DNA from: Buxus sempervirens
Lineage: Eukaryota; Streptophyta; Magnoliopsida; Buxales; Buxaceae
Reading direction: 5' to 3'
Assembly: GCA_947561395.2 (NCBI GenBank)
Contig: OX387193.1
Coordinates: 9,486,001 to 9,550,000 of the forward strand
Length of the DNA stretch: 64,000 nt
Shown here: piece after piece, positions 3,092-60,041 of the stretch
How positions within the stretch are numbered: the stretch's first letter is position 1
Layout of the letters: every line of letters begins with the position of its first letter
Made by a program: the position numbers and the translations under genes
Notes under the pieces: model-generated
Database searches by the model: none
What the model was told of the DNA's origin: nothing
Seen by the model: the letters and a program-made list of their open reading frames with translations, nothing else

Positions 3092-3133
3092 AATTAAGAT
3101 ACTAATTCCATCAAAAAAATTAAGATACTAATT
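3092..3133 (+). repeat. Tail-only retroposon stub, copy 1
   Basis: Two identical 16-bp direct repeats, AATTAAGATACTAATT at 3092-3107 and 3118-3133, enclose only CCATCAAAAA. This is the footprint expected of a LINE-machinery insertion truncated to its 3' tail. A local duplication is the alternative. Three similar sites lie at 43291, 43744 and 59990. Confidence 0.5.
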
Positions 3134-4127
3134 AAATTTTAAATATACCTTTATTATATTATCAGTATAATGAAGTTATATTTAAAATTTAATATAATTA
3201 ATTGTAACATAATATTCTTAATTGTTTATAATTAATTAAAATATTAAATTTAAATAATATAATATAATTATTATAATTACTTTATTATAATGAATTTTAT
3301 TATATAATTAAATTCCTAATCTATCTTTTCATAATTATCTTACTAACTAATAAGTCCACTTTCCTATTCAGAAGATGGGATACTTAGCATATTGAATTCT
3401 ATATGCGATGTATGCTAGTAATAATTGAATGAAAAGTTAAATCTTTGTTCCTGTAAGAATTTTTTTTAAATTCTCAAAAAATTTGACCCACATGTATTTA
3501 GAAGTTGAAAATTTAGAGTTTTTTATTTTTATTTTATGACAAATATATATGTGTTCTTAAAGGGATTACCTTAAATTGAGAGTTTTTTTAGCATCTTACT
3601 TTCCCTTTAATTTGTATTTGTTTGCTTTTTGTTAGTTATATATTATCTTATAATATTGCATAAACCCGTACCACAAAAGATGTTGAACATTTAACGAAGT
3701 TCTTAAGAGACAAAAATAGCCTTTCTTGTTGTTGTTTTTCAAGGGTTTATTAAAGCTTTTTTTATATTATACATCTTCTTTCCCTTCCTATGCCACACCC
3801 AAAAAAAAAATTCATCCTTAATTTTAAGTCATATATTTTGGAGTTGGATTAGGTATAATTAAAACCCATTTATGGAAAACTCTAACCAAAACTTGTTTTG
3901 AGTTTGGGTAGTTCAGGCTAGAATAATGGGGTAATGGATTACCAGCCAATGTAATATTCCTAACCAAATTACAAAATATTGTGCATACAAAGAAGATTGT
4001 AGATTACCTCAGTGAACAATTTGAATCTGGATTTTAAAATTCTGAATAATAGTTCGTAGAATTCCAACAATATACTATTATAATTGAAAATGGAAAATAA
4101 ATTAATTATAAGAAGAGAAATTTACAC
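3134..4127. other. AT-rich intergenic DNA, no gene seen
   Basis: Long A/T runs cover 3130-3320, followed by ordinary AT-rich sequence. I see no reading frame, RNA gene or clear repeat pair. Confidence 0.5.
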
Positions 4128-4130
4128 TTA

Positions 4131-5349
4131 GGCCCCGATTGGTTCGTGGAATCAAGGGTTGGAATTGGAATTGGAATTGGGGTTCCCAATTCCAATTCTT
4201 TTGATTGGTTAAATATTTGGAATTTGGAATTGGAATTAAGGCCCAATTCCATAGAATTAGCTTATAGGCTATTTTTGAAGTTACCTAATTCCCTACTAAA
4301 TCGAGAAGAATTGGGGATATGAGGTAGAGAATTAGAAGCACGATATATGCCCGACAAACAGAGCTAGCAAAATGCGACCCGGCCCGGTCCGACCCGACCC
4401 GAGTTAAACGGGTTTGGGTTGACTAGTTTATTAATTGGGTTGGGGTTTCCCTAACCTACCAATAATCGGGTCAACCCGATTATGACCCCGCAACCCGACG
4501 AGTAACCTAATTTTTTTTAAAAAAATCGACAAAAGTGTCATATCCCGACCCAATTAACCCCCAACCCGACCCAAACACGGTACAACTTGATCCAATTAAC
4601 CCCCAACCCTATTTTAAAAATAAAAATAAAAAATAATAATAAACGGGTTGGGGGGTTTTCCAACCGGCCTTAATTTAGTTTAACTCAAACCCGACCCAAT
4701 TAACCCAACCCGATTATGACCCAACCCTGAACTCGACCCAAACCAACCCTTTGCCAGCTCTACCGATAAAGAAACTACCAAATCTCATTCTCCTCTTCCT
4801 CGCTAGTGTTGCGAAGCTACCAAATCTCGTTCTCCTCTTCCTCGCTGGTATTGCAGGGACTAGTACGTATCTTCTCCCTTCTTCTCTCCTCTCTCTCTCT
4901 CTCTCTCTCGTCTTTCTATCTCTTTTGTTTCCTCTCTCTCCTTCTATATTTCTCTCTCTCTTTTTTTCACTTGTTTTGACCTATCGAGTTGATCATAATC
5001 GTTTGGTCTTATATGGAGGACCTGATTAAGACAAAAATATTATTAAAACCCAGTAGTGTTGTTTTTGTTTTGGTTGCAGAGAATGGATTATTGGAATTCA
5101 TATGTCATGATAATCAGTCATTTGTATTATTATTAACATGGGAATGATAAAAATCAATTCTTCATAAGTTCATCCAATCAGTGGAATTGGATTTTAAATC
5201 AATTCTTCATGGAATTGTAATTCCAAATTTCAATTCTCTTGCTATCCAATCACAATAATTTCAATTCTACCCAATTCCAATTCTTGATGAATTAGAATTA
5301 GAATTAGAATTCTTAATTCCAATTCCAATTCATTGAACCAATCGGGGCC
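4131..5349. mobile_element. PIF/Harbinger-like non-autonomous element
   Basis: The ends are inverted: GGCCCCGATTGGTTC at the left, and the right end reverse-complements to the same 15 bases. TTA flanks both ends (4128-4130 and 5350-5352), the 3-bp target duplication typical of PIF/Harbinger. The subterminal DNA is full of GGAATTGGAATT-type motifs facing each other. No transposase is encoded. A 404-bp hAT-like element is nested inside, and about 45 bp containing CTACCAAATCTC and CTCCTCTTCCTCGCT is duplicated near 4778-4855. Confidence 0.85.
4359..4762. mobile_element. hAT-like MITE nested in the PIF element
   Basis: The left end CAGAGCTAGCAAA faces a right end that reverse-complements to TAGAGCTGGCAAA. 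The 8-bp flanks CCGACAAA (4351-4358) and CCGATAAA (4763-4770) differ at one base, the target-site signature of hAT elements. The interior is made of facing ACCCGACCC and GGGTTGGGTT motifs. It has no coding capacity and is younger than its host element. Confidence 0.82.
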
Positions 5350-5670
5350 TTACACGTATTCATATTTACGAAAAAAAAAGTCAAATCCTCTCACATTTGA
5401 AAATAGGCAAAGACCTTCTTTCACATTTGAAAAAAAAAACGTAATTATATTAAACTTAAAGATTCAGTCGGGATTTAAATACTTTCACATTTTCAAGGTT
5501 TTTAAAGAGTTATAGGTAGTTTATCTTATTAAGTTTTAGCTAAATTCTACCCACGAAGATAGGTGCACATTGTTCCAACTTCCAAACGTGGAGGGAGGTC
5601 TTTTGGGGTCTACCTCCTTGTTGTCCGTAAAAAGGAGTCGTTGTTGGGATGGTAATGGGGCAAGTTAAAT

Positions 5671-5845
5671 GGGGTTGAAATCATTTGCCACAGTTAAGTA
5701 GTTGCAGACTTTGTAGCATCTCACGGTTACTGTTCAAATCACATTTCCCAATGTGAAATGTTGTTTCAATTGACATTTCACATTGGGAAATATGAAATGC
5801 CAAAAACTATGGGATGCTGCACGTTGCGACAGACGATTCCATCCC
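5671..5845. repeat. Hairpin MITE, AGATGCT family, copy 3
   Basis: The inner arms contain a near-perfect palindrome: CATTTCCCAATGTGAAATGT faces its complement around 5780. Outside that are AGCATCTCACGG and, reverse-complemented from the right, AGCATCCCATAG. The outer ends GTTGAAATCATTTGCCAC and GATGGAATCGTCTGTCGC resemble the ends of copies 5 and 7. Confidence 0.65.
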
Positions 5846-6049
5846 AATTAAAGGGCCAACCCCGCCACAAACTCAATATTAATTAATTAAGATATTACTT
5901 TTATATGTTTGATATATAAAAAATACACATTTAATGAATAAATATATTATGTTTCAAAACATATTTTTTTCCCACTTATAATTCAATCGGGTCAGCACCA
6001 ATCCCTGGGTTACCAACCGGAATGGAATTGTTTGTAATTTGAGCCTGTT

Positions 6050-6191
6050 GCAATTGAAGTAGTATGCTTTCACATGGAGCATCCCATAGTTAGTGTTTTT
6101 CTACATAGGTCTCACGTTAAACATTTACGAAATATGAAAAAAAAACATTAACCTTCGGATGCTCCACGTGAAAGCATCCCACTTCAACTGC
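6050..6191. repeat. Hairpin MITE, AGATGCT family, copy 4
   Basis: The inverted arms run about 46 bp. The left starts GCAATTGAAGTAG and the right, reverse-complemented, starts GCAGTTGAAGTGG. Both continue with ATGCTTTCAC(A/G)TGGAGCATCC. It lies about 490 bp upstream of the STMP1-like start codon and contains one CACGTG G-box core. Confidence 0.7.
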
Positions 6192-6680
6192 AGTAGCCAA
6201 TTCAGCCTGAATTGCAGACAATTTCGTTCCTGTTTCGTTAGAGTTTGGTATAGGCTCATCTCTTATATGAGCGGGTTCGGATTTGCCAAAGTAACCAAAC
6301 ATACCCGAACCCCGACCCATTGCCATTTCTACTTCAATTAAAAATGAATTTGAACCTTCCAGGAACTGCAGTACCAGAGCTGTAGCCTGGGCTTAGCGCT
6401 GAATTGCTGCTCAAGAAATATTGTAAATCAAGAGAACTTAAACCTAAATTCTTCTCAAGTTCCTCTCAGTTCTCGTTCTTCAGATTCAATCTACACCGAT
6501 TCAGCGAAACTTCTGTCGCCGTTGAATCTCTTCTGTAAATTCAAAACCCTCAAAAAGGTTTATATCTGTGGGTCAAAAACCCCCTGCAAATTCAATCTAA
6601 GGTTGTCTCGATCTTGGCTTTTCGACTTCGACTTACCTGCTTAATCTCTGGAACGGTATTGGGGAGGAGGGTTTGAAGTG

Positions 6681-6854
6681 ATGGGGATAATCAAGGGCAG
6701 CTTCTCATTCGTGTTGGGGACCATATGCGGAGTATACGTTGCTCAGAACTACAATGTTCCCAACATAAAGAAGCTCGTCAACACGGGACTTTTGATGGCG
6801 AAGCACATCGAGGAGTCTTACAGGAAACCGAAGAAGAGAGGAGATGACGATTAG
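6681..6854 (+). CDS. Short transmembrane mitochondrial protein 1 (STMP1)-like micropeptide
   Basis: This 57-residue protein resembles animal STMP1 (also called Brawnin), a mitochondrial inner-membrane peptide linked to respiratory complex III assembly; that role is carried over from animals. Residues 5-20 form one hydrophobic segment with glycines (KGSFSFVLGTICGVYVAQNY). It is followed by AQNYNVPNIKKL, the motif most like the family (AQNYDIPN in animals), then a basic and acidic tail ending KKRGDDD. An in-frame TAA at 6642 lies upstream and ATG 6681 is the first start after it. The 5' leader from about 6400 is CT-rich, as in plant 5' UTRs. No intron is needed within the coding part. The product is intact and of normal family length. 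Confidence 0.85.
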   Translation: MGIIKGSFSFVLGTICGVYVAQNYNVPNIKKLVNTGLLMAKHIEESYRKPKKRGDDD

Positions 6855-7639
6855 TCGCAGAAGAACGGAGTAAGAAAACCAGGTTCTTGTAATGTTATTA
6901 TTCTTAATCTTGTTCTACTTAGGTCTATATTGTTCAAGGTTTCATATTGGTGGCGTTGGAAAACTATAACCCCACCCTCATTGGATATTGTTTTTGAAGA
7001 CCAGTGATTTTTGGGCTACAATGACACTTGGTTTGTTAATGGAGAAAAATAGGTTGTTTCTTTCTATTTATTTATTTTATTTTATTTTTATCAATAATTA
7101 AGGCAATTTTCTTTCTTTTTATTAGCTTGTAATTCCGATGACATGCTGTTAATTCTACTTTTTAACTTCATCTACTCTCGTTCTTACTGGCATTTTTCTG
7201 GTGGCAAAAGCTGCTGGATTCTGGTTATGATGGTACGTCTTTGAACGGGTATCCTGTTATATATCCCATGTGTGCAGTTCATGCAAGGTGTGCTACAGAT
7301 TAGAGAACATAAAAATAAACTAGCAATATGTTAAGGTCTGAAAGAAGATGGAAAACAGCTTTTGTAGCAGGTTTTTTTTTTTTTGGCAGAATGAGAAAAA
7401 GATGAGAAATTAAAGTCATGAAACTCCCTTGACCCTATCACAAGTTGAAGTAGAGAACTGAAGATCTTCCAAGTGACAAGGTCCATTGGGCTTTTCTTAT
7501 TGATAAAATCCCTTGGTTACGTTATTTCCAAATATTCATTCAAACAGCACGTAGAAGGGTTTTTCTTCCTCAATTCTTTTAATTCTCGTGCTTCAATATC
7601 CCATTTTCCATTCACTCAACTGTGGTCCTTGGCATTGCC
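6855..7639 (+). other. 3' flank of the STMP1-like gene
   Basis: This stretch holds the probable 3' UTR and downstream DNA. It includes T-rich runs (7370-7385) and no reading frame I can support. A clear AATAAA poly(A) signal is not evident close to the stop. Confidence 0.4.
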
Positions 7640-9147
7640 AAAGACTATCCAATATTTGGTTGAATAATTGCTACAGATCCCGGAAACAGCTTGAAAATGG
7701 ATAAGTAAGTGATGCACAGATTCTTCGTCTACTTTTCACATCACGCCCCAGTTAGGAGTGACCTGGCTTCAGTGAATGAAATGATCAGTGGTTAAAATAT
7801 TGTCAAGTGCAGCCGTCTAAGCAAGGTATGCAATTTTTGTAGGTATTGGCACCCTCAAAATAGGTTTAAGGGGAAAAAGGCTTCTGTGGATGACTGCAAA
7901 GCTGAAAGGTGTGAATTGAGGAGATACTATTTTCCGGAGTGATCCTTTGTTGTCAATAATTTTCATTGAGACTGAAAGTAGTAAAGAAGTTGTATAAGAA
8001 CTACAATTGATTTGATATCCGCATCATTTTGTTCCAGTTAAGTGCAATATCCTAAATAATTGATGGGCTTCTTCGGTGCAATCTTGCACCACTGTCTTTA
8101 TCTCCTGCAAGTTGTAAACTTATGGAAAGCTTGATTTTATGGCAGGGTTACCACAATGTAAGCTGTCCCAGAAAGAAGCAGTTTCACCAATTATCGTTTT
8201 GAATTCTTTCATCAAAGGTTCTATTGTGCTTGTGATTGGTAACGTATCCTGCCATTGGGGAGAGGAGTCATGCTTGGCTGCGATCCTTCATAAACACTCT
8301 GTTTTGGTTCCCAAACACAGCGGCCATTAGGCATGAGGGCTTCATTGGAGACCATAATAGGCCCGATACCAAAACCCACCTCCTTAGGCGTGCAATAATA
8401 ATCCCGCTACACAAACTAATTTAAATTCCTTCTCCACCCTCTCTCTAAAAAAGTCTCTTTTAATATTTTTCTTATCTTCCAGCCCTTGAATTTGGAATTT
8501 TAAACTTGAGAGGAAATAAGTTGAGAGATTGGTGTGTATGCTTTTTCAGAGCATTGTTCAACCCCTTCTTGAAGATAGCCCGATTCCCAACTAGTTAATC
8601 TTTCATCAAAATGTTTCCTCATCTGGTTGCAGATTCCAATAATTGTATAATTTGCACCCAAGATAGATAAGCTTGTAGGTAGACTTCCTACTTGACTTAC
8701 TAAAGAATCTGCAAGTCAATGAATTTGTAGCATTTCTCCCACTGAAAACTCTTTATTTTAGCAGGTTAATTCCTTGATTTGAAACAGCTTCATAAGTGAT
8801 AACATTGAAAATTCTGAACTTTTTGAAAATGTACTTTGAAAGTGTTTTAACTTTCTGTGGCTGGTATTGGAAACTACCAAGACATCCTCTGCAAATCGAA
8901 GATTTACCATATCAACCTCCAATTCTATGTTGAAACTAGAAATCAGATTTCTACTTGCTCCTTTGGAGACACTTGTTCCAAGTACTTCACTACTATAATA
9001 AACAAGGAAGGGAATGGTGAATTCCTTTGTTGGATGACCCTTGAGCCTCAAAAGAATTGTCACAATGCCTGATTTACCAATATCAAGGAGGCTATAGAAA
9101 TGCATCATTTGATTTATTTCTGTCATTTGGAACTCAAGCCCACTCAT
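7640..9147 (-). mobile_element. Decayed L1-type LINE (reverse transcriptase and zf-RVT remnants)
   Basis: On the minus strand, 9147-8758 is an open frame containing INxRFADD-like text, VNLRFAEDVLVVSNTS, where the reverse-transcriptase YADD box has become FAED, followed by KHFQSTFSKSSEFSMLSL. Further downstream, about 7740-7640, one frame reads DEESVHHLLIHFQAVSGIC, which resembles the LINE zf-RVT region although its cysteines and histidines are partly lost. The order and orientation fit one LINE. Stops and frameshifts are everywhere, so it is long dead. Boundaries are approximate. Confidence 0.55.
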
Positions 9148-9149
9148 CT

Positions 9150-12994: not shown

Positions 12995-14557
12995 GAAGCC
13001 GTTTGGTAATGTTTTTTTTTTTTTAAACTAAAAACCTTTCAAACTGTTTTTTGGTTTTTGAAAACAGTTAACAAAAAACCCGTTTGGTAACAATTACTGT
13101 TTTTTAGGTTTTTAGAAACAGATGACAAAAAACCCATTTAGTAACAATTAATAAAAAAACAATTTAAGTTTTAAAATTACAAAAATGCGTTGCGATACAA
13201 AAAACAAGTTAAGTTCAATACGCTAAAACAATATCCTTTCACATTGAGTAATAAAGAATGAACATAATTAAATAATTTAATTTAATTAAGAATAGTAATT
13301 TTAAATTTAGTTTTGTTAACATTAATATGTTTAAGTAATTTTAGAATTAGTTTTGTGTATAAATAAAATGATTGATTGGTACAAAGCCGTCCAATCGAAT
13401 ATGAGGGGCTTGTCATAGTAAAATGTCACTATAATTTAATTATTTTGACAAATATTTCTTAAATGTTGGAACTTAGACTGGATTTTAATTATTTTCAAAA
13501 CATATCACTAAAATTTAATTTTCACTTTCTTCTTCCCTAAAACACTCGACTATTCAAATCCCTCTTGCTTTCGCACTCTCCTTCTTCCCTCCTCTCTCGC
13601 TATTTCTCTCCCTCACCCTCTCTGTCTCTCTCCAGATTCGCTCCTTGCGGCTCTCTCGGCTCGAGCACTCGACGATCAAAACTCGGCCTTCATAGATCGG
13701 GACCTGAAACCTTCTGCATTCTCCTCTTTCTCCTTCGTTCCAATCGACTTCCTTCTACAGCAGTGTCAGATCAGGAATTAAAAACCATCGCGATTTTATT
13801 TGGACGAAGATACCCTCCACAACTCTTTTATTTCCCTAATCTCTCTGTCAGCTCGATTCACCAGATAAGGGTCGGAGAGAAGAGAACAGAAGCGTGACTT
13901 AGGGATTTCCATGGATCTACTGAGACGAGAGTTGGAGAAGAAGAGGAAAAGATTGGCAGAGGATGTTGGAGGCAAGAGGGTCTTCAAACGCTCCGAGATC
14001 GAACAAAAGAAGATCCAAAAGCTTCAAGAAGAAGAGAAGAAAGAGTTAGAAGCCAAAGCCCTTCGCTAAAGGCAGCATAACCCCATCTCCACTTCTTCAA
14101 CCTTCACTTCCTCCGTCACCCCATCAATCGGACCTTTTTTCTTCTTCTTCCAAACCCTCTTCGAAAACCACAGAAACCCTAACGGAGGAACAGAAGATGG
14201 ACGAGCTCATGCTTCCTAAACAAGAAGTCCTACGTCGCCTAAGATTTCTGAAACAGCCTATCACGCTCTTCTGCGAAGACGATGAAGCTAATCCTTGATT
14301 TTGCTTCTTCTCTTTACCTGATGCATCGACGTGCTTGAGAGGAAGGAGTTTTGTGCGGAAGATAGATGAGAGGAAAAACTCTCGAAGAGAAAAGAAATCA
14401 GAATATTACAAAAATGCCATAGAATCGAAAAACGATTCGTCGTTTTTCAACCGTTTTTCTAAAAAACGAATTGAAAACTCTCACTACCAGACAAATTTTT
14501 GGTTTTTTGTTTTTAAAAACTGAAAAACGGTGTTCAAACACGTTGCCAAACACCCTC
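12995..14557. mobile_element. Pack-type PIF/Harbinger-like element carrying PRP18 sequence
   Basis: The left end GAAGCCGTTTGGTAATG and the reverse-complemented right end GAGGGTGTTTGGCAACG share the GTTTGG core, and TAA flanks both sides (12992-12994 and 14558-14560). Subterminal copies of GTTTGGTAACAATTA and runs of facing AAAACC/GGTTTTT follow. The interior from about 13560 to 14300 is not element-like: a CT-rich leader is followed by coding sequence from the splicing factor PRP18. This is the structure of a gene-capturing non-autonomous element. Confidence 0.8.
13911..14298 (+). pseudogene. Captured N-terminal fragment of pre-mRNA splicing factor PRP18, broken
   Basis: The parent protein is the second-step splicing factor PRP18. 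Starting at ATG 13911, 52 codons read without a break: the start MDLLRRELEKKRKRL, then GGKRVFKRSEIEQKKIQKL and EEEKKELEAKAL, the conserved PRP18 N-terminal text as I recall it. A TAA follows at 14067-14069. Coding similarity resumes in the +1 frame from about 14180 to 14295 with LTEEQKMDELMLPKQEVL and RRLRFLKQPITLF, then EDDEA, ending in TGA at 14296. The rest of PRP18 is absent. The upstream CT-rich 13560-13900 may be the parent's 5' UTR. It lies wholly inside the TIR element at 12995-14557. Confidence 0.85.
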
Positions 14558-15619: not shown

Positions 15620-18600
15620 TCAAAACTGTCTTTCCCGGAAAATCTGTCCAAGCTTCAAGTAAAGAGACAGTTGCTCCTCAAAAGTAAGGTTCCTCAATAT
15701 CTACAGCACGATTAACACAAACATCTCAAACAACTTATCTCGTATTCCATCTATAATCTAACTAGTGCTAGTAATATATGCATGTATCAATATGCAGCAG
15801 TTTACCTGGTCCAAGATCATCTCCACTGAATAGTTCTGAGGCACAATAAATGACTGATGATATATGTACGCGAACACAGCCATCACCATCTAGGGAGACA
15901 AGATAACATTTGAAGCATGAAGCATCCACATGAGAGTAGTTGCAGCAGTTTATTATTTATGACAAAAACCATGAATATACATAAAAACGCTATAAAATCA
16001 ACGTAAAAACATGGCATATAGTGCACGTACACAAAGATCATGAGCATCCAAGGACTAGCACATCCTTTTCAAAACATACCCATAACAGTGTAAGGCATTG
16101 CACATGCGCCTCCCCACCCACCCACCCACCCCCCAAAAAAAAAATCATATTCCGGGGTTTGATGGGGGGTGTACAACAGATTTTTTAATCTTTTCCTCAA
16201 AACCCTAAAAGCCCATTGAGACAAATCCTAAATTCCCTCCAAGAGAAATCTTCTCCTCACAATAATGTGAGGAGATTTGATGTCACACATCTGTATGTCA
16301 ACAGATGTTGAGATTTGATGATCTAAAATATTTAGTTGCCCATTTCAATCGAAAATTTCTTAATAATTTCTTTTTCAAACTATTTTGCATCTTTGTAAAG
16401 TGCCGACAAGTTGAGCCTAGTTGAAATTTGCACATGGGATACATGGATATAGTTTTCACCTCAGGTTGAATACGTGATCAGGGTGACAATACAACTACAA
16501 ATGTTAACAAGACTTAAGAACAGAATGGTTTATTTGAAAAATGTATATCAACATAGCTACATCTTTAGAAGCTCACCTGGCAATCCATTCTGTCAGTAAT
16601 TCCACCATGCCCAGGAATACTATCACCGAAATCCTGCAATAGTTTGGAAAGAGGGAAATAGCATAAACAATATTTAACCTCATTATTTTTATCTATATCA
16701 GTTTAATAGCGATGTTCAATAAACAGGGCTGAACCTTGATTTTAAAAGCTCTCTTGAAGCCACTCGCAAAAAAGCCTCCAAAAGGTGCTATAATTGATGC
16801 AAATAATCCAAGACTTAAAGCATGCCATTGCACTGGCAAAACTGAGATCTCTTTCCATGGAAACTGGAAACATAATAAGAGTTAAAATATTCAATAAATT
16901 GAAAGTTATTAATCTATACAAGCTCACAGATAAAAATAAATGAGTTTAAAAACAAACTGGAAGCCAAATGACACCCTAGCAATTCAAAAAGATTTAGAGA
17001 AATTTATAAATAAATATTATGAGCTAAAGTATGAACAAAAAAAAATGAATAGAGTTAAATAAAAAAGATAATCATATGGATATAATTGATTCTTGTTACA
17101 AGATTGCAGATTGATGATGATAAAGTATATCCAATGCACTCAAAAAGTTGAATGTTGGGATTGGTGATAGATTCTTTTTAATTTCTTCAACCTCCCACAA
17201 ATTGGTACAAGGTATCATCTATATTAAGAAGTATGGTGAAAATACCATGTATACAAAAAGGTCTACACCAGCCAGGAAAAAAAATGCTAGCCCATGGAAC
17301 CAACTTACAACTTCCAAATCCCCTCATAATCATGGAAAAATTAAGAACAGGAATCATTGCTAATTAAGGCAGTATTGACACCCCACCCAAAAAGTAAAGA
17401 AGTTGCATATTGATGATTAAAAATTGATGCCGAACTCCTTGTCATGGAAAATTCTGTAGTTTTATCAGTCCCAAACTAGCAGCAAACTGCAGCTGGGCAC
17501 AAAACCAAAATGAGACAGCCTTAATCATTCTTTTTCCTATCTTTCTAGAACCCCAAGACAATAACACATCATCCATGCTTAATTGTTTGCACCAGATTGT
17601 AGTTAAATCCGACAAGAAAGACAGACCACAGCAGGTGTAACAATGCATCATACAACCGGGCAAGATTTCTTTATTTTTTTTAGGCTTGTTTGACATAGCC
17701 TATCGATTTAGATGAGAAGCTGTTTAAATTGACAATAGCATGAATTCAACAGTTTGTTCCACCCAAAATAAATATAACATATTCTTGTCTTAGCGGTGCC
17801 CTTGCCTTTGGCACCATTTGTTTTTTACTTTTATCTTTGTATCTCCCCTTTTATTCAATATAATTTCATCACTTATCAAAAAATAAATAAATATAACATA
17901 ATTTGTAGTATACAACGCTTATGAACACAATATACAGAGTTACAAATTGATAAAAGGAATGGTAGGAGATTTTATAATTTGCTTTCAAATATTACAGGTT
18001 TTTTAAAATTACAAAGCCATCATATAAATTCTCTACGATTTACCATTTCACACAAGAATTTACTTCAAATTTAATTGCTTACCATTCAAGTTTCAAATCT
18101 TCCATCACATGGATGAGTACATAAATTACAAACAAGAGGGGCAAGCCTTGCTGCAACAGTAACGTTGCTCCATTGCGACCTAAAGGTCATGGGTTCGAGT
18201 CACATGAAGAAGCCTCCCAGCTTGTGGGGATTAAGGCTGTCAGACCCTCCCTAGACCCCGCGCAATGGCGAGAGCCTTGTGCATTGGGCTAGCCCTTTTA
18301 GTGAATTACAAAAGTTTAAATATACACGAGAACTCAACTAAAATAATCGTGAGTGCGAGTTGTCAAAATGAACCATCTATAGCTAATATAAAAAAAAACT
18401 GTGCAGAATCCATAACATATTCAAAAAAGTCTTATTTTGTTGGATCAACAATGCACTGCTTAAACTGCATCATGCCTAATGCCCTAGTGTCAAGGTCCAA
18501 AAATTTTCCCTTACAGTGCATAAACGGTGCAACGCTATGGCTCTCACGTCATCACAACCATACTTGCCATTCATGTGCTCTTGAACCATGTCCAAAGCGC

Positions 18601-43290: not shown

Positions 43291-43346
43291 AGAGATGGAC
43301 GAAAGATCGTTACCAAAAAAAAAAAAAAGAGATGGAGGAAAGACTG
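43291..43346 (+). repeat. Tail-only retroposon stub, copy 2
   Basis: The 19-bp direct repeats AGAGATGGACGAAAGATCG (43291-43309) and AGAGATGGAGGAAAGACTG (43328-43346) match at 16 positions. They enclose only TTACC plus 13 A. Confidence 0.5.
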
Positions 43347-43743: not shown

Positions 43744-43792
43744 AACTACAAATAGACAGTCTTTTCAAAAAAAAAAAACTACAAATAGACAG
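43744..43792 (+). repeat. Tail-only retroposon stub, copy 3
   Basis: Identical 16-bp repeats AACTACAAATAGACAG (43744-43759 and 43777-43792) enclose only TCTTTTC plus 10 A. Confidence 0.55.
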
Positions 43793-49119: not shown

Positions 49120-49727
49120 AGGAAACTTCGTTAAATCGCGTGGGCCCACATTGCCAAAAGCGCGATAACGCGTCCCATGACGTACCGTTTTTGTCTTCAA
49201 ATTAATGGGCCCTACTATTGACACCTATAGATGATCGTAGCCGTCAGATCTGTCAATGCGTTAGATCTGTTAATATGTTAATGACGTTTGTGGAATTAAG
49301 CAATCGAGACGTGGGCAATTTCGTGACGCTACAAAATGGGCATGTTAGAAAATGAAATGGCAATCTCGTAAATATTGTTAATAAGAGGGTGTATTGTTTT
49401 TAGTAGCTTCATTCTGTAATAGTTAGGCACGTCGGAAAGAAGAGGATATTCGCACCTAAATTATGCGGCTCCGAATATCCAAAAAGAATAATACCATCAG
49501 ATTTCCGCATATCCCTCCTCATGATTGGCTACGAAAAAGCCATGTGGTAAAAAGTACGGTCGGGGTAAGCCACGTGGCATTTATTGCGGCAGAACCCACC
49601 AATTGGCGCTATTTCAACCAAATTAGCTGGGTTCACATCGTCTGCCGCCTTAGCCTGCCGTTGGAACCTCCGTTTTATAGGATGCTGCCGCGTGGAGGTT
49701 TTTGTCACGTCATCCAGAGGCTTTAGT
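49120..49727 (+). promoter_or_regulatory. Promoter-like stretch without a recognisable downstream gene
   Basis: Dense ACGT-type motifs occur: GCCACGTGGCATT at 49568 (G-box), CCATGACGTACCG at 49174, GCCGCGTGGAGG near 49686 and TGTCACGTCATCC near 49703. GTAGCCGTCAGATCTG at 49238 is a phrase common in plant promoters. Where a transcript would be expected there is a MITE (from 49732) and then the LINE. A similar stretch lies inverted at 62004-62097. Confidence 0.4.
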
Positions 49728-49731
49728 TTTT

Positions 49732-50279
49732 GGAAAATTACTGTACACACTATCTTTTAAAATATTATTTTAAAATACATTACCTTCATAATTAAATGCC
49801 AAATTTACACTTATTTTATAAACAATATGATAGAATGCCCTACTGCATATATCAGAAGACAAAAAATACCTCTTTTACCCCCGGTTTACAACTCACAAAC
49901 CGGTCTAAACAATAGAACTGTCGAATCTTACTCCTTTATTTTGGTTTTTCCAAACCCAAAAAAAAAAAAGAAATTCAATCAAAACCTTTCGTCTACCTTC
50001 TTCTATGGCTAAAAGAATAACATAACATGGATTGGTGCTACTACTGCGATTGGTGCTTTTGTTGTGTCTGCTTCTTACTTGACATGCTGAACCACAAGTA
50101 TAAAAACTGGTTTATGAGTTGTAACTCGAGGGTAAAATGGGCAATTTTTGTCTCTTGACACATGCAGGAGGGCATTCCGTCATTTTGTTTATAAAACTAG
50201 TGTAAACTTGGCAATTAGTTGTAAAGGTAGTGCAGTTTGGAATAAAGTTTTAAAAGACAGGGTGTACAGTAATTTTCCC
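49732..50279. mobile_element. MULE-like MITE
   Basis: The left end GGAAAATTACTGTACACACT and the reverse-complemented right end GGAAAATTACTGTACACCCT are near identical, continuing into (A/G)TCTTTTAAAA. The 9-bp flanks TTTAGTTTT and TTAACTTTT agree at 7 bases, consistent with a Mutator-type target duplication. Its right edge meets the 3' end of the large LINE. No coding capacity. Confidence 0.65.
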
Positions 50280-50284
50280 TTAAC

Positions 50285-53200
50285 TTTTTCTTTTGGTGGA
50301 GAACACAGCAACATTATATTAAGATATTATGAGAAAAATTACATTTTGAGCATCCGCCAATAAAACCATACAGATAGCTTTGGGGGGTTTTTTAATCCAA
50401 ACACAAGGAACTGATCAATTGCAAAGCTTGCAAGCAGATCTGTTACTTGATTTCCTTCTCTAAGGCAGTGAGAGAAATGAAGAACCGGAATCCTATTGCA
50501 AACCTCTTTCAGACCAATTAGGATGCCACAAATTCGCCAAGGATACATCGAGCTTGAACCAGCAAGAAGTTGAATAATAGACTGGGAATCTCCCTCCAGA
50601 ACAACATGAGAAAGGTCGAGCACCACCGCTAGTTTAATTGCTTTGAAAGTAGCTGCAGCCTCCGCTTGTATAGCTGAATTTGCCACTATAGTAGACGCAA
50701 AGGCAGCCACAAATTTCCCACTAGAGTCACAACATACACCTCCAATAGCCGCCTTCTAGGTTGATTTTCGCCAAGCACCATCAAAATTTATTTTTGTGAA
50801 AGGATGTGAGGGGTGGGTCCAACTAACCAGTTTATGTGTTCTTCTTGCTTGAGCAACAAAATTCTTCTTGATGACCAACGAATTAGCTTGCCTTTGCACC
50901 ACCAAATTACAAGTTTCTTCTATAGACATGAATTTCTTCTCAAATAATGCCGCATTCCTCCTGTTCTAGATTGTCCAACCCACATTAACAGCATCTGTGA
51001 GAAAGTCAGTCAGTATGAAATCACTATTCTGAGTTCTAATTGAAGTCATATACTCAAACCACTTAAAAAAGGAGTTTTGAGGGCCATTCATTTGGGCATT
51101 CCCTCCAATAGATTTGAACCAAACAGCTCCAAAGTATGGACACTTTAACCAGATATGTTCAAGTGTCTCCTCTTGATCTTGACACAGACAACAAGTCGTG
51201 TTAATACCCCCAATTCTCGAGTTCAGAAATTCAGCAGTAGGGAGGCCGCCATGTAAACGCTTTCATAAAAAAAGCTTAATGTGACCTGGAACATTGAGGT
51301 GCCAATACTTAAGCCAAACGTGATTACTTTCCTCTAGTAGATGACCTAACTGAAATCTGTAACCCGAAGCTACAAAGAAGCTTCCTATTGTTGTACCCAT
51401 CCAATTAGGACTGTCTTCTGCACCTCCAACACACACTTTTGTATTAATGATTGCTTGTGCTGTTTGTAAGTTCCAAAAAGTTGAAAGAAGAGGAATGTTC
51501 CAATCTGTGGAATTTGGTTGCATTAGTTGACTGACCTTTGTGAAGTTGAATTGATCCTGGTTCTTATGAACTGTCAGCTGCTGGTTTGTACCTTGAATCC
51601 AAATGTCTTTAAGAATATGAATGTCACAGCCCTTGGCGATAGACCAAAAACAGCCCCTCCGAACTTGTTCTACCATGGACCTCAATTGCCTCCAGCCATA
51701 GGATCGGGACCGCCTGAACTCTGCATCGAGAAAGGACTTGTTTGGAAAATATGTGTCTTTCATAAGAGAAGTCCATATACTTGAATGTCCATATACTAAG
51801 TTCCATGCCAATTTCAAGATGAAGGCTTTATTCATGTGCGGCATACTTTTGATGTTCAATCCTCCATTTCTCCATGGTAATGTGATCGTGTCCCAACAAA
51901 TAGTGTGGATGGCCTGTCGATCATTTCTTTTCCTCCATAAGAACTCCTTGGCCAGCTTATCTAACTTATTTAATGACTCCTGTGGAAGTGAAAAACAGCT
52001 CATAAAGTGTGAGGGTTGGGCACTAATAACAACTTGAGATAGGAGCAAGGCCTTCTAGCCATTCAGACGAGTAGTGATCTTGGACAGCAGCTCATCACAG
52101 TCCTTTGCCTTGGGCTTCCTCCCCATAATTGGTAATCCAAGGTACTTGCCGTGTTCCTTAGGAGCCAAAATACCCAGAATTTGACACACCTGAATTCGAT
52201 CTTGATAGCCTGTGTAGTAACTGAAATGCAAAGAAGACTTCTCTTTGTTTACCGCTTGTCCTGACTCCATGCAGTACTTGTGTAAGAGTCTCGCAATGAC
52301 ATGAACTTCTCTTGCATGAGTGTGCCCATATATGTACACGTCATCCGCGTACATGAGATGAGAAATGGCCAATCCACCTTTTTTGATTGTTATTCCCCTC
52401 AACCTTCTATCACTTTCAGCACGAGTAATCGCTAGTGACAAAACTTGTTGGCATAAGATGAACAAATACGGAGATAAGGGGTCCCCCTGACGAATACCAC
52501 AAGAAGCAGAAAAATTTCCTACAGGCTTTCCATTGAAGAGCACACTATAAGATACTGTTTTGACACAAGTCAAAATCAGCTTGATCACACTTGGTTGGAA
52601 CCCATGACCACTTAGCACTGCCTCTAAAAACTACCAACTTAACTGATCATATGCCTTGGAGAAGTCCAGCTTTAATGCAAATAGTCCCTTTCCAGATTTT
52701 GCTTTAGATGTAGGATGCCTGGAACACCTTTTTTTCTTCTTCTGCAAACAGTGTGCACCTCATGGTTGATCAAGATGTTATCTCTAATTGACCGGTTTGG
52801 GACAAAAGCTATTTGGTAAGGTGATATAATCTGGGTTAAGAGAGGCCTAATTCTGTTAACAAGAATTTTTGATATGATTTTGTATAAGAAATTGCAAAGG
52901 CTTATAGGACGAAAATCTTTGATGGACCAGGGGTGAAGAGATTTAGGGATGAGAGTTATGAATGTGTGATTCAAACCTTCTGGCATTATACCATTTCTGA
53001 AAACATTCTGAACAGTTTGGACTACTTCCTCTCCAATTATAGACCAATCAGTTTTGTAAAAAATACCTTGGAACCCATCGGGTCCAGGCGCCTTCAATGG
53101 TTCCATTGACCGGACAACATTCCAAATTTCTAAGGAGGTAGGAGCTTGAGCAATGGTGGAATTGTGCTCAGGTGTGATCTTATTTGGAATTAGGCCAGGG

Positions 53201-54150
53201 AGCTCAAAATCAGACCATACGGGTTCAGTCACAAAGCTCTCTTGAAAGTGCCTCACCACCATTTTTTCCAGTTGTTGATTTTTTGTAATTTCCCTATTAT
53301 CCACATCCTTCAAGGAATAAATGAAATTTTTTTTGCCTTCTGATCAGCGTAGTCTTATGGAAAAAACTTGTGTTTTGGTCCCCTTCTTTCAACCAATGGA
53401 CTGGAGATTTTTTAGCCCAAAAACTTTCTTGCTGTTTAAGGATTTTTGCATATTCTAGTTGAAGCTTTGTTTCCTCAGCAAATAATGCAGCAGAAAATTG
53501 GTTCGACAATTCTTCTTGGATTATTGTAATCCTGTCCTTCAACTCCCATTTCTTCGTGTGAATATTTCCCATAGTATTTCTGTTCCACTGTTTCAAATCA
53601 TTCTTCACACACCTCAGTCTTTGTTGCATTGAGACAGTTGTACCTTGGTTTCGTGAATTTCTCCATGATTCTTCAATGGTCTGATAACATGACTCTTCTT
53701 GCACCCAAAAGGCTTCGAATCAGAATGGTCTTGCTCATCTTTTGTTATTGTGCAACAGATTTAGTATCACCGCGCAATGATCGGAAGCTATAATCAGTTG
53801 AGCAAAGACGGTAGGTTGAGGAAACATGTCAAAAATATCTGTAGAGGCAAAAACACGATCAAATTTTTCTGAGATGCGACGGAGACCTTGTTGGCCATTG
53901 GACCAGGTGAATTGAGCTCCTTTCATAGTAATCTCTGAAAGAAAACATGCACTGATCATATCCCGAAAGTTATTCACTTGTATGGGAATGAGGTGAGAGC
54001 CTCCACATTTTTCTGATGGGTGTAACAGGGCGTTAAAATCTCCAAGGAGAATCCAAGGAAGGAAAAACTATTGAGCCATATTCACGATAGTATCCCATTG
54101 CTCCTTCCGACGAGAGATATTGGAATTGGCATGAACAACTAGGATCAGTC
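50285..54150 (-). mobile_element. L1-type LINE ORF2 (endonuclease remnant, RT, zf-RVT, RNase H), broken
   Basis: Minus strand, in order. Endonuclease remnant at 54150-53735: LGDFNALLHP, GAQFTWSNGQ and ASDHCAVIL. A linker at 53704-53297 includes WLKEGDQNTSFFHK. Reverse transcriptase at 53313-52055 includes KAPGPDGFQGIFYK, DFRPISLCNFLYKIISK, GIRQGDPLSPYLFIL and the catalytic HLMYADDVYIYG. zf-RVT region at 52048-51150 includes WRNGGLNIKS, HIWLKCPYFGAVW and CCLCQ. RNase H at 50800-50339 includes NFDGA, AEAAATFKA, LEGDSQSI and REGNQVTDLLA. Frameshifts or stops near 54090, 53720, 53310, 52650 and 52050 make it inactive. The N-terminal half of the endonuclease is missing where it meets the Ogre-like piece at 54150. 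Its 3' end is at about 50285, next to the MULE-like MITE. Confidence 0.92.
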
Positions 54151-54154
54151 AAGG

Positions 54155-54820
54155 CATGATATAGTTGAGCAAGGATTAATGGTGCAATCCGGAATTTCAC
54201 TTGGAGTTGGTCCACAATTTCCATGAGGGCCAAATTAATGGTGTCTCCCCCAGTAGGAAAGAAGAGTTGTGACAGAACCACGAGGGTGAAGGTGTCCCAC
54301 CAAACACGGGTCTTTCCTGCTTCTTGTCCCTTATCTTTTCAGCAAGGAAGGTTTTAGAGACCCGCGTGAATGCTTGGTCACCTCCTAAAGTCTGGAATTC
54401 TCCTCTGGGTAGGCCAAAGAAAGTACAAGCTTCATTCTTGTAGCTATCTTTGAGACTTGGCCTAGCTGGTTCTCCATGGTCACGAAATCGGAGGAATAGT
54501 TCAAATTCCTCAATTGTGGGTGTCAACTCATTAGTTCCAAACCTAAAGAGTGAAAGTTGGGGATCCCAGAAAGGTAGGGCTGCCTGAATCATGTCCCAAT
54601 TAATGGGCACATTTAACAGGGACAGAGTCTGTCCCATATGGTATTTCTGTTTCCATTGAATTTGCTCATCTCCTTGCAATTGCCTTGTCCAAGAACGGAT
54701 CCAAGGGGTATCAAAGGCACACTTCTCTATCCTAGGGAAGCGAATTCTCTCAGTCGAGGATGAAGATGCCATGCCGACTATCCGATTGAAATTCCAAGTC
54801 AATTTAGGGTTTTCCACCAA
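54155..54820 (-). mobile_element. Ogre-like ORF1 with plant-mobile-domain-like sequence, truncated
   Basis: The reading frame opens at 54820. From residue 28 it reads RIRFPRIEKCAFDTPWIRSW, then LLNVPINWDMIQAALPFWDP and RFGTNELTPTIEEFELFLRF, the pattern of the plant mobile domain found in the extra ORF1 of Ogre/Tat Ty3-gypsy elements. Near 54260 the similarity shifts frame and continues as FFPTGGDTINLALMEIVDQL and IAPLILAQLYHALT. It stops where LINE endonuclease sequence begins at about 54150. Gag, protease, RT and integrase of this element are not in the window. Confidence 0.7.
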
Positions 54821-56076
54821 AAACTCTAAATTAGTCTAAGGCATGCAACAGGATATGAAAAAATTAAATCAATGCCTAAGCAGTTCATGCAATCAAAAAT
54901 CAAATCCAAGCATTCAAGTTATGGGGTTTTAAAGGTTATGTCCTTTAAATGTTTGGAAAACGCATTCAGGTCTTAGCCGGCCTTTTCTTTCATCTGTTCT
55001 TTCATCTGCTCTTTCATCTGCTCTTTCATCTGCCCCTAGTGTCGGACTGAAAACAATATTTACAACTTGCCTTCGAGGGCGAAATTTACAAAAAATAAAT
55101 CTGAAAAGAGAATCACCTTTAGGGTTGTTGAGAACCCAAAGGGAGGGTACAAATTTGTCATTCGGCAGGTGGGCTGAAATCCTATCTCTAGGGTTTTTCT
55201 GCCCCTGTTCTGACCCATTTTTGTCTGATCTGGCCGGCTTTCGACTGAACTAAGACCGATTTGAATGCACGGATTGAATCGGGTTAATTTCCTTAAATTA
55301 GGGTTAAGACCAACAAAGGTGGGGGTTAATGCCCCAGATTGATTTTACCCTTATTTGTTCATTCATGTTCATGCTCACATCAAAGTTTATCAGAAGTAAT
55401 AGATGGGGAAGGATACCCAGCCCAAGGCACCTGCCTTCAAGGGTCTGAGCCAAGTACTAGACCCTTCGCGTACCATGGCAAGAAACCAATGGCGCTTGAA
55501 GAATCTAGAAACCTGGGGAGATGGGTTTACCCTGCTTTTCCCCGGCAAGCCATGGGAGCGTAGGGCTAATACCATCCCAAAAGTAAGTTTCTCGATTGAA
55601 GAAGGGTGGCTGCTAGAGAGATCTAGGTTTTGGTTGAGAAGAGCATTCACATGTTGTATTCAGTTCAGATCATCCATGCAGACTCCCTCGTGCATGATCC
55701 CTGCAGTTAAAAAAATTCATTCACGGTGTAGTGAAGTGCTTGTATGTGCAATGGGGTCAAGTGCTGTGTCTATTCGGGTGATTCTCGGATAAGGGCCAAC
55801 AAAGGGTTCCTTAATGTCACATTTATAGTAAAAGTGCAGAACAGCATGTAATACAAGATCTGGGTGAATCCCCAGGTAAGTGGGCGGGTCACATTGGTCC
55901 CTGTTAAAAACCACTTGCCTTAGGCGATTATCATGTCCGTTTGACAGGATCCCCCAATATCATGTAATTACATGAGTTCCATACTTTACTAAGGTTGGAC
56001 AAGAAGTACTTCCTGCATTAGCCCTATATCCTCCTAAGTTGACTCATTTGATAACCAGGGTCCGACTGGGTTGAGG
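54821..56076 (-). other. Leader of the Ogre-like element, between PBS and ORF1
   Basis: This is untranslated internal DNA of the LTR element. A 12-bp motif, CTTTCATCTGCT, repeats about four times at 54984-55036. The open frames on the plus strand at 55339-55792 have no family resemblance and lie antisense to the element. Confidence 0.5.
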
Positions 56077-56097
56077 TGTCCCCAGTGGAGTCGCCAA
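56077..56097 (-). other. Primer-binding site of the Ogre-like element
   Basis: On the minus strand TTGGCGACTCCACTGGGGAC starts two bases after the LTR end. TGGCGACTC is the form I recall for tRNA-primed Ogre/Tat elements. The position relative to the LTR is exactly right for a PBS. Confidence 0.7.
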
Positions 56098-57715
56098 GCT
56101 GTGCGCACCTAAACCTGGCCTAGATCGCACACCGGGCGCACCTTTGGTGCGTGCCTCGGGACATTCAGAGTCGCCACTGCCTGAGAGTGCAGGCAGACAC
56201 GGATTTGCCCTATCCGGGTCTAAGTCTGGTCTGCGGCTTATTAGAGATCTAGCTAAGTCCTCGGTTACGGTTCGGGGAAGTCTTAAAGACACCCCGGTCC
56301 GCCCCGTCGGTCTGACGGGTCCCTCGGGTCTCCCTGGTTTTTGAGTCGATTTCACCCTTCCTATACCAGCATGCTACCTTGTTGAGTCTGGCGGGGCCCT
56401 CTGAAGGTGTGGGTCTCTTTTACTTTGATTTTATCTTTCTTATTTATATGAAGTGGGTCGGACCCGGGTCCCGTTGGAAGACCTGTGGGCTGCCATGGTT
56501 GGGCCTTGGGCCCAGTTGGGTTATTGGGTAACCCATTTGGTTATTTTATTAAGTTTTATATATTTACAATTTTAGTTTGGGCTTAGTGGGCTTGGAATGG
56601 GCCCATTAGCCAAGGGTCAAAGGGCCTGGGCCTGTTTACTGAAAACAGGCCTGGTATAGGCCGGTCAAAAGTGGGCCCATCTAGTGGGCCAAAGGGGTCT
56701 TGATGGGCCTATCTAGGCCCAAAGTCCAAGAATGGGCTTAAGAAAGCCCAAAATGGTTAAGGGGAGTGGTTCAGGCCGGTTTAGGCCGGAATTGGTCCAA
56801 CCAGGCCGAGAAATTACATTTTTTAAGATATATTACAATCGCCCGTATTTTCTTTACGGTCTCACTTGCCCGTGAATGGAATCCGGTCCCCTTTGTCCGT
56901 AAATTGGACACGGTCCAGGCTGGACCGGCCTGAGTTTACGGACACGACCTGTTTTGCATGTTTACTGCCGATTTCAATCTGGATCAGCTCCGTGGCTTTT
57001 CTGGGTCTTCTAGTAACTTCCACCGAGCTTCTGCTTTCATTCCAAGTTCCACATTTCCTTCATTTGGCTTATAAAGCCATTTCTTCTCTTTTCATGTTCT
57101 TTGTAATCTTGGGTTTACTTCTTCTCTTTTTTCTTCTTTCTCTTGGTCAATCACCGTTATTTTTCAGGAGGGAAAGGGGAGATTACAGGGGTGGATTAAT
57201 TCTAAAAGAAACCATCCATCATAGCAAAGTGAGTTAGTTTTAAAGTGGCTATGTTAATTGGTGGATAACCTCCTCTCTTTTAATGAAATAACCACTTTAA
57301 TTTAGCCCTTTCATGGCTTTAAACAAGCAACAAACCGGTTAGAAGTAGTGAGATAATAAAAATATATGAAGACATCAAAATTGATTATGTCATACTTTAT
57401 AAAATGAAGAAAATACTTACAATGAGGCTTTTGATTTTCTTGCACTTTGTGGTATCTCGAAAAATTGGGCAGCGCTTCCGCGTCCTCCGAGGAATTCTAG
57501 ATGGATTTCAGCAGAGGTTTAGTGGGTTGTTTATACTTACAAGATGAAAGAGGGAATTAGGACATAGTTCATGCAAGGTGAGGGTATTTTAGGAATAAAA
57601 CAAGTTTGGGCTAAGGGTGGTGGTGGTTGGGCAGCATGGGGTCGTGGAGTACACCAGGAGGGAGAGGGGGTAGGCCAAAGGGGAGAGGGCTTGTTCCAAA
57701 TGAGGGGGGTGGCCT

Positions 57716-57727
57716 CTCTATTTATAG
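57716..57727 (-). promoter_or_regulatory. TATA box of the Ogre-like LTR
   Basis: CTATAAATAGAG on the minus strand is a near-consensus plant TATA box. The start of R would be about 30 bp downstream, near 57690. Confidence 0.6.
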
Positions 57728-57738
57728 GCAAAAATCCC

Positions 57739-57951
57739 GTGCCCGTATTTGAAGTACGGGCATGCCTTGCCCGTACTTCAAGTACGGGCGTGCCTTGCCC
57801 GTAATTCAAATACGGGCGAAAAACGAATATTTGCAATTATCGCAGATTCGGCCGTACAGGACGCGTGTCTCGCCGTACAACGACGCGTGTTTCCTTCTGG
57901 AATCTTGCCCGTATTTCAAATACGGGCATGCCCTGCCCGTAATTAAAATAC
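57739..57951. repeat. Array of CCCGTATTT/AAATACGGG palindromes in the LTR
   Basis: GCCCGTATTTGAAGTACGGG, GCCCGTACTTCAAGTACGGG, GCCCGTAATTCAAATACGGG, GCCCGTATTTCAAATACGGG and GCCCGTAATTAAAATACGG occur, the first three spaced by GCATGCCTT or GCGTGCCTT. GACGCGTGT occurs twice between the third and fourth. The array sits in U3 just upstream of the TATA box. Confidence 0.85.
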
Positions 57952-58516
57952 GGTCCAGCACGTTTTTAAAATGTTTGGATTTTAAACCTTTATTCAATTT
58001 GGTTTTTTGCAAGATTCTTATCCGATTTTTTGATTATTTTATTAAAAAAGCGAGATTCTCTTTATTAAAATATTATTAAACACATTTATCTTATTTATTT
58101 TATTGGTTTATCCCATTTTTGCTGCCTTTTTGCCACATGGGCAGTTTTTCTGAAACTTCAACTGTTCATAACTTCTTCATCCGGTGTCCGATTTCAACAA
58201 ACTTAGTGTCGTTGGAATCAGCTCGGAACCACCTATCCACTGGGGTCAAGTTTGGCAGCTGAATTGGGGTTGAGCAAAAAGTCAACTTTTCGCCCCCCCA
58301 AAAGTTTGACCAGCTCATATATTTTTCATCTGGACTCTGATTCCAGCAAATCCAGTTGCGTTGGAACCGTGTCGAAATGCTCTTCTCAATGAGATGAAGT
58401 TTGATGGCCAAATTCACTTGAATCAAAAAGTCAATTTTTGACCCCGTCAGGGATTGACCAAAAGTTTGACTTTTGATTTTTTCTTTATTTTGGGGTGCAA
58501 AAATCAGGTGTCTACA

Positions 58517-59800
58517 GCAGGTTAAAGGATGGGCCATTAGAAGCTTGAGATGGGCAGCATGTGGCCGAGAAGGTAAAAGGGCCTTGCTTGAAACCAAGAG
58601 CAGGTCCAGATTGATTTGGGAGACTAGTCAGACCCTTCTGAGAATAAAACCGATTGCTTTGCTTGGACAGCCCAGGCCCACAAGAGAAAGCATGGCTCAA
58701 CCTGCTGCCCCCAGACAAAACTCCACTATGCTCCATACCCAAGTTTATACCCAGATTGGATATAGCAGCATCCGGACCCGACGCAGGAAGCACAGTCGAA
58801 GATGGAACACGATCAGCCTTCTTTCTAGCATCATCTGAGGAAAATTTTTGTAAGGCACTTCTTCGACAGCGGCATATTGTCGAATTGCTCGCTGAATACT
58901 TTGGCACAAAGATAGAGTCGAGACAATTAGGAATTTCTGCAGTGGAAGAATTTGAACAAGCTATGATAGAATGCCACAAGAATAGCATAACTCTGGAATC
59001 CCTTCAAACGCAAAGTGAACCTAGATATGAGTTGAATCCAGCGATTCAACAAAAATCCCTGTAGGAAGAGGGGTCTGAAGCAGGATTTCCATACGCAAAC
59101 ATGCATGCACGAAATCTGGAGTGGTTGGAAGATCAATCTTGAGTGTATTGCCAAATTCATTGCCAAGACGTTTCAGAAAGTGTTCATCTAGCAACGAACG
59201 GGGAAGATAATGGAGCTGCATCCAGATCGTGAAATGATTGAACATATGAGATTCAAACTCCTCCCGGCTGGTCACTTTATCCATAAAGCTCAATGACCCA
59301 TTCACAAACCACGATTGAGAGTCCAGAAGCACTTGCTGTTCAGCTTGAGATGACATTGCAATGAGGAACCTCGCCGAAGAGATTTGAGATAAAGATAAAA
59401 TGTGAATTGCTTTCCATGCTCTTTCAACAAAGTTCTTCACAGAGTTTAGAGAAAGGGAAGCGTTGAAAACCTCTAAAACCAGAATATACTGCCATTTGGA
59501 TAGCAGCCTATCCTTCTCATAGCCCAGAAGGTTGAATACCTTTCTTGATCTAGGAGGAAGGACTAGCTGTTGGAACCTCGATGCCATATCCTCCATTGGA
59601 CAAGGAAGAAACCGAATACCTGAGGGAAATGAAGGAACAGAAGAGGAACTAAGAAGGTGGGTGGGAGGAGGAAGATGGAGCACCAGAAGAGAGGAGAGCT
59701 GTACTTCACGGACAATAGATGATGAAACAGATGCAGGCAGAACCAGAGGAGAACGAGAGCAAAACCAGGTGCGGTACGGGGAGATACCATGAATCAGCTA
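58517..59800 (-). mobile_element. 5' part of the L1-type LINE: ORF1 with DUF4283-like and CCHC region
   Basis: The minus-strand frame from about 59683 (likely start MEDMASRFQQLVL at about 59593) reads SVKNFVERAWKAIHILSLSQ, ARFLIAM, SWFVNGSLSFMDKV and FTIWMQLHYLPRSLLDEHFL, the RNA-binding domain (DUF4283) of plant LINE ORF1. KIDLPTTPDFVHACLRMEIL follows, then after a stop EGIPELCYSCGIL, the start of a zinc knuckle. The rest is proline- and serine-rich and ends where the LTR begins at 58516. The true 5' end may reach 59960, past a duplicated GCAAAAAAGGGG phrase at 59890 and 59933. Confidence 0.8.
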
Positions 59801-59989
59801 AGCAGGAGAAAAACCGCAAGCAAGATACGATAGAAAACCACCGGTAAGACCCAAATCTTGGTGATTGCCTTGACCCTCACGCCAATCTGCAAAAAAGGGG
59901 CGATCGCACTCAAAGTCTCTCAAAATCTTGCAAAAAAGGGGTGGTCGCACTCAGAGGCTTTAATACCAATCCGTTAACTTCTCCATTAC

Positions 59990-60041
59990 ATTAAACAAAT
60001 TCAAATGACTACCAAAAAAAAAATTAAACAAATTCGAATGA
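59990..60041 (+). repeat. Tail-only retroposon stub, copy 4
   Basis: The 19-bp repeats ATTAAACAAATTCAAATGA (59990-60008) and ATTAAACAAATTCGAATGA (60023-60041) differ at one base. They enclose only CTACC plus 9 A. Confidence 0.55.

Follow-up and report, generated by a model that had tools for sequence, protein, structure and literature searches.

We have identified very short insertions, hereafter termed stubs, in a 64,000-nucleotide (nt) window of Buxus sempervirens DNA (the whole stretch analysed; contig C19, positions 9486001-9550000) and elsewhere in the genome searched (676.5 Mb). Each stub consists of a few bases and a run of A residues enclosed by a direct repeat. With a probability of roughly 0.88, the stubs are completed events of target-primed reverse transcription (TPRT) of the L1 type, L1 being a family of long interspersed nuclear elements (LINEs), in which poly(A) and about seven further bases were copied to a fixed point and a target-site duplication of 14-19 bp was left. 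An origin by TPRT, as a reading of the window from sequence alone had proposed, is well supported because the A tail is oriented, duplications enclose the inserts, the site at 59990 has an empty counterpart, and the same structure is found in copies genome-wide.

Four A-tailed inserts between direct repeats had been claimed in the window by the sequence-only reading, and all four are present, at 3092, 43291, 43744 and 59990, with repeats of 16-19 bp around 5-8 nt and an A run. The repeats are as described at three of the sites (two perfect, one with 1 mismatch), but the 19 bp with 3 mismatches given for 43291 are better bounded as 16 bp with 1 mismatch. The components of the four stubs are as follows.

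3092..3107, plus strand: left target-site duplication of stub 1, AATTAAGATACTAATT
3108..3117, plus strand: insert of stub 1, CCATC-A5 (the A run is 7 with the repeat's A's included)
3118..3133, plus strand: right target-site duplication of stub 1, a perfect 16-bp copy
43291..43306, plus strand: left target-site duplication of stub 2, 16 bp
43307..43327, plus strand: insert of stub 2, T + CGTTACC-A13, the 7-mer being shared with a stub on contig C9 (L070)
43328..43343, plus strand: right target-site duplication of stub 2, 1 mismatch
43744..43759, plus strand: left target-site duplication of stub 3, 16 bp
43760..43776, plus strand: insert of stub 3, TCTTTTC-A10
43777..43792, plus strand: right target-site duplication of stub 3, perfect
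59990..60008, plus strand: left target-site duplication of stub 4, 19 bp
60009..60022, plus strand: insert of stub 4, (GA)CTACC-A9, absent from two paralogues (L068 and L069)
60023..60041, plus strand: right target-site duplication of stub 4, 1 mismatch

Stubs were sought on both strands by a scan anchored on A runs, in which the sequence following each run was compared with that preceding a short body to find a repeat shared by the two. The same scan of the backward-read sequence served as a mirror control, in which composition and repeats are kept and the TPRT order is lost. Strict settings (repeat score at least 13, A run at least 7, body of 2-12 nt) returned five A-tailed stubs in 104 kb of C19 (the window and 40 kb of flanks), versus none in the mirror; these are the four window sites and L045:2854 on the minus strand of a flank. 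Lowering the A run to at least 5 at the same score gave 6 stubs versus 1 in the mirror, and 40 dinucleotide shuffles at this setting averaged 0.05 stubs per 104 kb. Shuffled and reverse-orientation controls had been proposed by the sequence-only reading, and at these settings their outcome favors it. A comparison sample of 20 evenly spaced 10-kb stretches of contigs C1, C3 and C6 (14,036 of 200,000 bases are N) contained no strict stub in either orientation at an A run of at least 7, and 1 versus 1 at an A run of at least 5.

Further evidence comes from a word shared between sites. When the GA common to the end of the repeat is counted, the body of the stub at 59990 is GACTACC, which is also the body of a stub in a further flanking stretch (L067). 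GACTACC followed by A12 occurs 156 times (89 + 67) in the genome, versus once for the pattern read backwards; a made-up control word, GACTGAC-A12, occurs nowhere and its reversed control once. Every fifth of the first 100 listed GACTACC-A12 places was taken as a sample of 20 (L071-L090), to which a fixed test for a duplication was applied. The test was passed by 17 of the 20 places and by 1 of 20 in the mirror; at the former rate, about 130 of all 156 sites would be stubs. The same test was passed by only 1 of 28 runs of at least 12 A's that do not follow TACC (17 from C19 and 11 from the comparison stretches), this one being the stub at 43744, and by both of the two such runs after TACC in C19. 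In the 17 passing copies, duplications of 14-19 bp, identical along their full length in 12, directly enclose GACTACC-A(12-18). The body is GACTACC itself in eight, has its G within the aligned repeat in four and is 1-2 nt longer in five, so that its length is 7 nt in eight copies, 6 in four, 8 in three and 9 in two. Both the 14-19 bp of these duplications and the 16-19 bp of the window sites fall within the roughly 7-20 bp expected of L1-type TPRT. One of these copies (L076) was counted with a gap of 7, a longer repeat at a gap of 28 having been discarded as wrong. The failures are L071, in which a 16-bp repeat is present but spans a gap of 15 nt, and L077 and L078, for which neither an element with a repeat within reach nor, by eye, any L1 in about 550 nt upstream (L091 and L092) was found.

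The wider TACC class is similarly skewed, since TACC-A12 with a non-A base seven places ahead occurs 1920 times versus 187 in reversed form, an approximately 10-fold excess. Among 98 listed matches with letters, the 7-mers before the tail include, by eye, CATTACC (about 14), TATTACC (about 9) and CACTACC (about 6). Among the matches listed, these words and CGTTACC recur, by eye, before A12 with unrelated letters upstream. The 43291 query itself matched a stub on contig C9 that reads, by eye, GAAAGAGCAAAGAT, CGTTACC, A14 and GAAAGAGCAAAGAT again, i.e., with the same word as stub 2. Additional stub families beyond GACTACC are therefore likely, judging from these recurrent words. At one target (L093) and, by eye, at another (L080), two successive stubs are seen, the second insert lying within the duplicated target of the first.

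Empty sites, which the sequence-only reading had suggested looking for in related accessions, were sought among paralogues. Stub 59990 has two partial paralogues in the genome. The one on contig C1 (L068) carries a single ATTAAACGAATT... target and is exactly 33 nt (19 + 14) shorter, i.e., by the insert and one repeat, and is a clean empty site; it also joins both flanks of the neighboring L1 and is thus empty for both events. The paralogue on contig C4 (L069) likewise has a single target, but a further 12-nt gap adjoins it. The 3092 insert is absent from all 20 related copies compared, and its predicted empty site is matched at 32 of 32 positions by L037 and at 31 of 32 by L004. The empty-site evidence at 3092 nevertheless appears ambiguous on comparison of these copies, for a reason taken up below. 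L004 and L037 belong to an AT-rich repeat family (window 3040-3330; L002-L008 and L030-L042) and are without one arm of a duplication native to it, perhaps through recurrent deletion.

In the mechanism that we propose, an L1-type endonuclease would nick the target, an RNA would prime on the nicked DNA through its poly(A), reverse transcriptase would copy the poly(A) and about seven further bases and end at a fixed point, and a staggered second nick and repair would generate the duplication of 14-19 bp. L1 is the presumed source of the enzymes. The left end of the GACTACC body is the same across unrelated targets, so it is the template or the enzyme, rather than the target, that determines where this end lies. 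We favor a copyable template that begins, or is blocked, about 7 nt ahead of the poly(A). An L1-like RNA with a TACC end might contain a strong stop (a structure, a bound protein or a modified base), or the template RNA might itself be no more than a few bases and the tail, e.g., a 3' cleavage fragment. Transfer RNA 3' ends (...ACCA) were also considered as a template and are presumed not to be it. The sequence-only reading had synthesis stopping just past the poly(A); its TPRT part is well supported, whereas a random stop does not agree with a GACTACC body of 6-9 nt in 17 of 20 places, which points to a defined stop or a defined short template. We give even odds to a further proposal, that of a "nano-retroposon" family in which more than 100 independent insertions of GACTACC and poly(A) arose by TPRT from a discrete template of about 7 nt plus tail, probably along with sister TACC words (about 1,700 TACC-A12 places above the reversed control), the stub being the normal outcome. 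If so, it would be the shortest defined retroposition product.

Four other origins were weighed. The stubs might be the short tail of the length distribution of an L1 with a GACTACC 3' end that is 5'-truncated at random. L1 copies here are often very short, with about 9 of 21 family-A 3' ends having, by eye, no shared upstream sequence, and an insertion of 24 nt and A13 between perfect 13-bp repeats (L045:6926, minus strand) looks like a somewhat longer relative of the stubs. Random truncation should not, however, yield a body of 6-9 nt in 17 of 20 places with only a 15-nt gap and two places without a repeat within reach as the remainder, and we consider it unlikely. Internal deletion of once-longer insertions of LINEs or short interspersed nuclear elements (SINEs), with only the tail remaining, would have needed the same two end points every time, the left duplication and a position some 7 nt ahead of the A run; no direct support for it was found, and it is scarcely credible. 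Chance repeats or tandem duplications that happen to contain an A run do exist, as illustrated by two candidates rejected as stubs, 37331 (a 24-bp perfect repeat that belongs to a 32-bp tandem duplication) and L067:3481 on the minus strand. As an explanation of the stubs themselves they are just as improbable, in view of the shuffles, the strict mirror and the empty sites.

Repair of double-strand breaks could also duplicate a short patch, as in the patch-type model of such repair, and introduce filler DNA. The product would resemble a stub in that direct repeats of small size flank an insert of a few bases. Filler DNA is treated in a published account of double-strand-break repair (PMC2686159). 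Inserts without an A tail, whose equal frequency between such repeats the sequence-only reading had named as evidence against itself, do occur. A repeat-only scan of C19 found 20 non-clustered repeats, of which 13 were labelled "other", five A-tailed on the plus strand, one A-tailed on the minus strand and one mirror; for the comparison stretches the 43 repeats comprised 39 "other", none A-tailed on the plus strand, three on the minus strand and one mirror. Two of the 13 (L045:2347 and L045:2802) are A-tailed stubs missed by the labels, and the A-tailed rows at 13154 and L046:659 appear weak. Given the many non-A spacers, there is a genuine background of break-repair duplications or old tandem repeats, and at 3092 a single repair step acting on the native state with both arms could suffice. 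Break repair gives no reason, however, for filler with an A run at the right repeat rather than in the mirror arrangement, nor for an identical 7-mer at 17 of 20 unrelated sites; oriented A tails and a recurrent word are not features of filler. We regard it as very unlikely, though less so than internal deletion or chance.

Several observations weigh against TPRT with a fixed end. The four sites were the picks of the sequence-only reading, and the strict settings were chosen after these had been seen and after looser scans had given weaker asymmetry. That reading had no part in selecting the flanks, L067 or the genome samples. At a repeat score of at least 10 and a body of up to 30 nt, the window gave 10 versus 4 in the mirror and the comparison stretches 10 versus 10, and with a body of up to 800 nt C19 gave 14 versus 9 and the stretches 33 versus 46. 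The 20-place test covers GACTACC only, within the first 100 listed places, and other ends are single cases. No longer element ending in GACTACC, as a parent L1 would be, was found among the sampled places. Left junctions in stubs and L1 copies are mostly non-A/A, partly by construction, with no clear TT/AAAA consensus. In at least 11 of the 20 copies of the 3092 repeat family an imperfect duplication is native to this position, and the left repeat of stub 1 may therefore be partly native and old. No paralogous empty site was found in the genome search for 43744, whose 311-bp locus matched only itself, or for 43291, which has no paralogue.

Known systems resemble the stubs in part. In humans, a poly(T) insertion of about 120 in NF1 exon 25 with a 6-bp duplication is read by its authors as what may be an Alu, L1 or processed pseudogene in severely truncated form (PMC3219598), and another report includes four poly(A)-only (pA) rows, three of which list a deletion and no duplication (PMC4859970). 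Human pA insertions are alike in that poly(A) alone is inserted by an L1-dependent route. They are single cases, whereas the stubs combine a word that recurs with a fixed short body and with duplications of 14-19 bp at many loci; the defining trait of the pA class, a poly(A) whose source sequence cannot be identified, would fit single stubs but not recurrent GACTACC. Plant L1 copies that are 5'-truncated, here ending in CACTTATC-A, GATTACCC-A or CCACC-A, resemble the stubs in their junctions, in having poly(A) at the 3' end and in duplications that are mostly 15-18 bp long, but they have identifiable L1 sequence and scattered 5' ends, unlike the roughly 7 nt and fixed end of the stubs. Plant SINEs are short, non-autonomous, often A-tailed and made by TPRT. 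About 7 nt is too short for a SINE body or promoter, and RNA polymerase III promoter boxes are not possible in the 6-9 nt of the 17 copies. No fixed-word stub family turned up in the open-licence literature, which was searched mostly before the word was recognized. We file the stubs as TPRT insertions of a new sort, outside the LINE and SINE families, poly(A)-only insertions being already known, as rare events, in humans. That near-empty insertions are easily overlooked, as the sequence-only reading had claimed, is supported, since a stub looks much like a small tandem duplication or an A-rich microsatellite, and repeat annotation is likely to miss it. The stubs are a natural read-out of the end of first-strand complementary DNA in TPRT, which is usually visible only as scattered 5' truncations. 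With this end fixed at about 7 nt from the poly(A), it becomes a testable question what halts the polymerase or which short RNA serves as the template.

An extra 50 kb of flanking DNA yielded three more stubs: L045:2854 on the minus strand (GCTTAC-A9, 19-bp repeat with 2 mismatches), L045:2347 (TATTACC-A6CA7, 16-bp repeat with 1 mismatch), which was found by the repeat-only scan, and L067:3209 (GACTACC-A18, 19-bp repeat with 1 mismatch) in one more 10-kb stretch. The C19 stubs thus lie on both strands, six on the plus strand and L045:2854 on the minus strand. Among the six stubs in 104 kb there are two pairs within 520 bp (43291 and 43744; L045 2347 and 2810), for which a simulated P of about 0.007 was obtained with a threshold picked post hoc. 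Among the matches listed, GACTACC-A12 lies within 38.5-51.5 of 55.9 Mb on contig C6 (6 of 6) and within 31.7-44.8 of 48.9 Mb on C9 (7 of 7), and is widely spread on other contigs, e.g., C1. Given this distribution, a wrong compartment as the reason for the absence of strict stubs from the comparison stretches is only partly supported. Maize LINEs and SINEs are reported as kept in gene-rich DNA (PMC2774510), and the grouping on C6 and C9 would fit a similar retention of retroposons. Ten large open reading frames, one from each of 10 of the 20 comparison stretches, were compared with known proteins; six matched retroelement proteins, two the plant mobile domain, one a SWIM zinc finger and one a cellular gene.

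Two L1 copies in the window were used for comparison.

17766..17900, plus strand: severely 5'-truncated L1, the yardstick; a 103-nt insert (17782-17884) ending CACTTATC-A between perfect 16-bp duplications (17766-17781 and 17885-17900)
49711..59962, minus strand: long L1, old and interrupted, that matches DUF4283 and reverse transcriptase; its 3' end reads TTCTCCACC-A and its duplication is TAAAGCCTCTGNNTG

The LINE at 17782-17884 with its perfect duplication was correctly recognized by the sequence-only reading and belongs to a plant L1, of which it forms the 3' end. Its longer relatives run, by eye, upstream into an RNase H frame; most of 20 relatives compared end in CATCACTTATC-A. The stub inserts had been said to resemble its CTTATC end, but this is not the best match, as four stubs (59990, 43291, L045:2347 and L067) end in TACC. 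A 738-nt L1 fragment (L023; RNase H by eye), which ends GATTACCC-A17 and has an 18-bp duplication with 1 mismatch, shares this end with one more C. A resemblance between the inserts and TTATC (p 0.0066, conditional on a final C; five stubs, post hoc) is superseded by the TACC result. The old L1 ends at 59962, 27 bp from stub 4. Its interruption includes a DUF7745 match at 54200-54835, and a stretch with inverted repeats that, by eye, resembles a miniature inverted-repeat transposable element lies between its tail and the right copy of its duplication.

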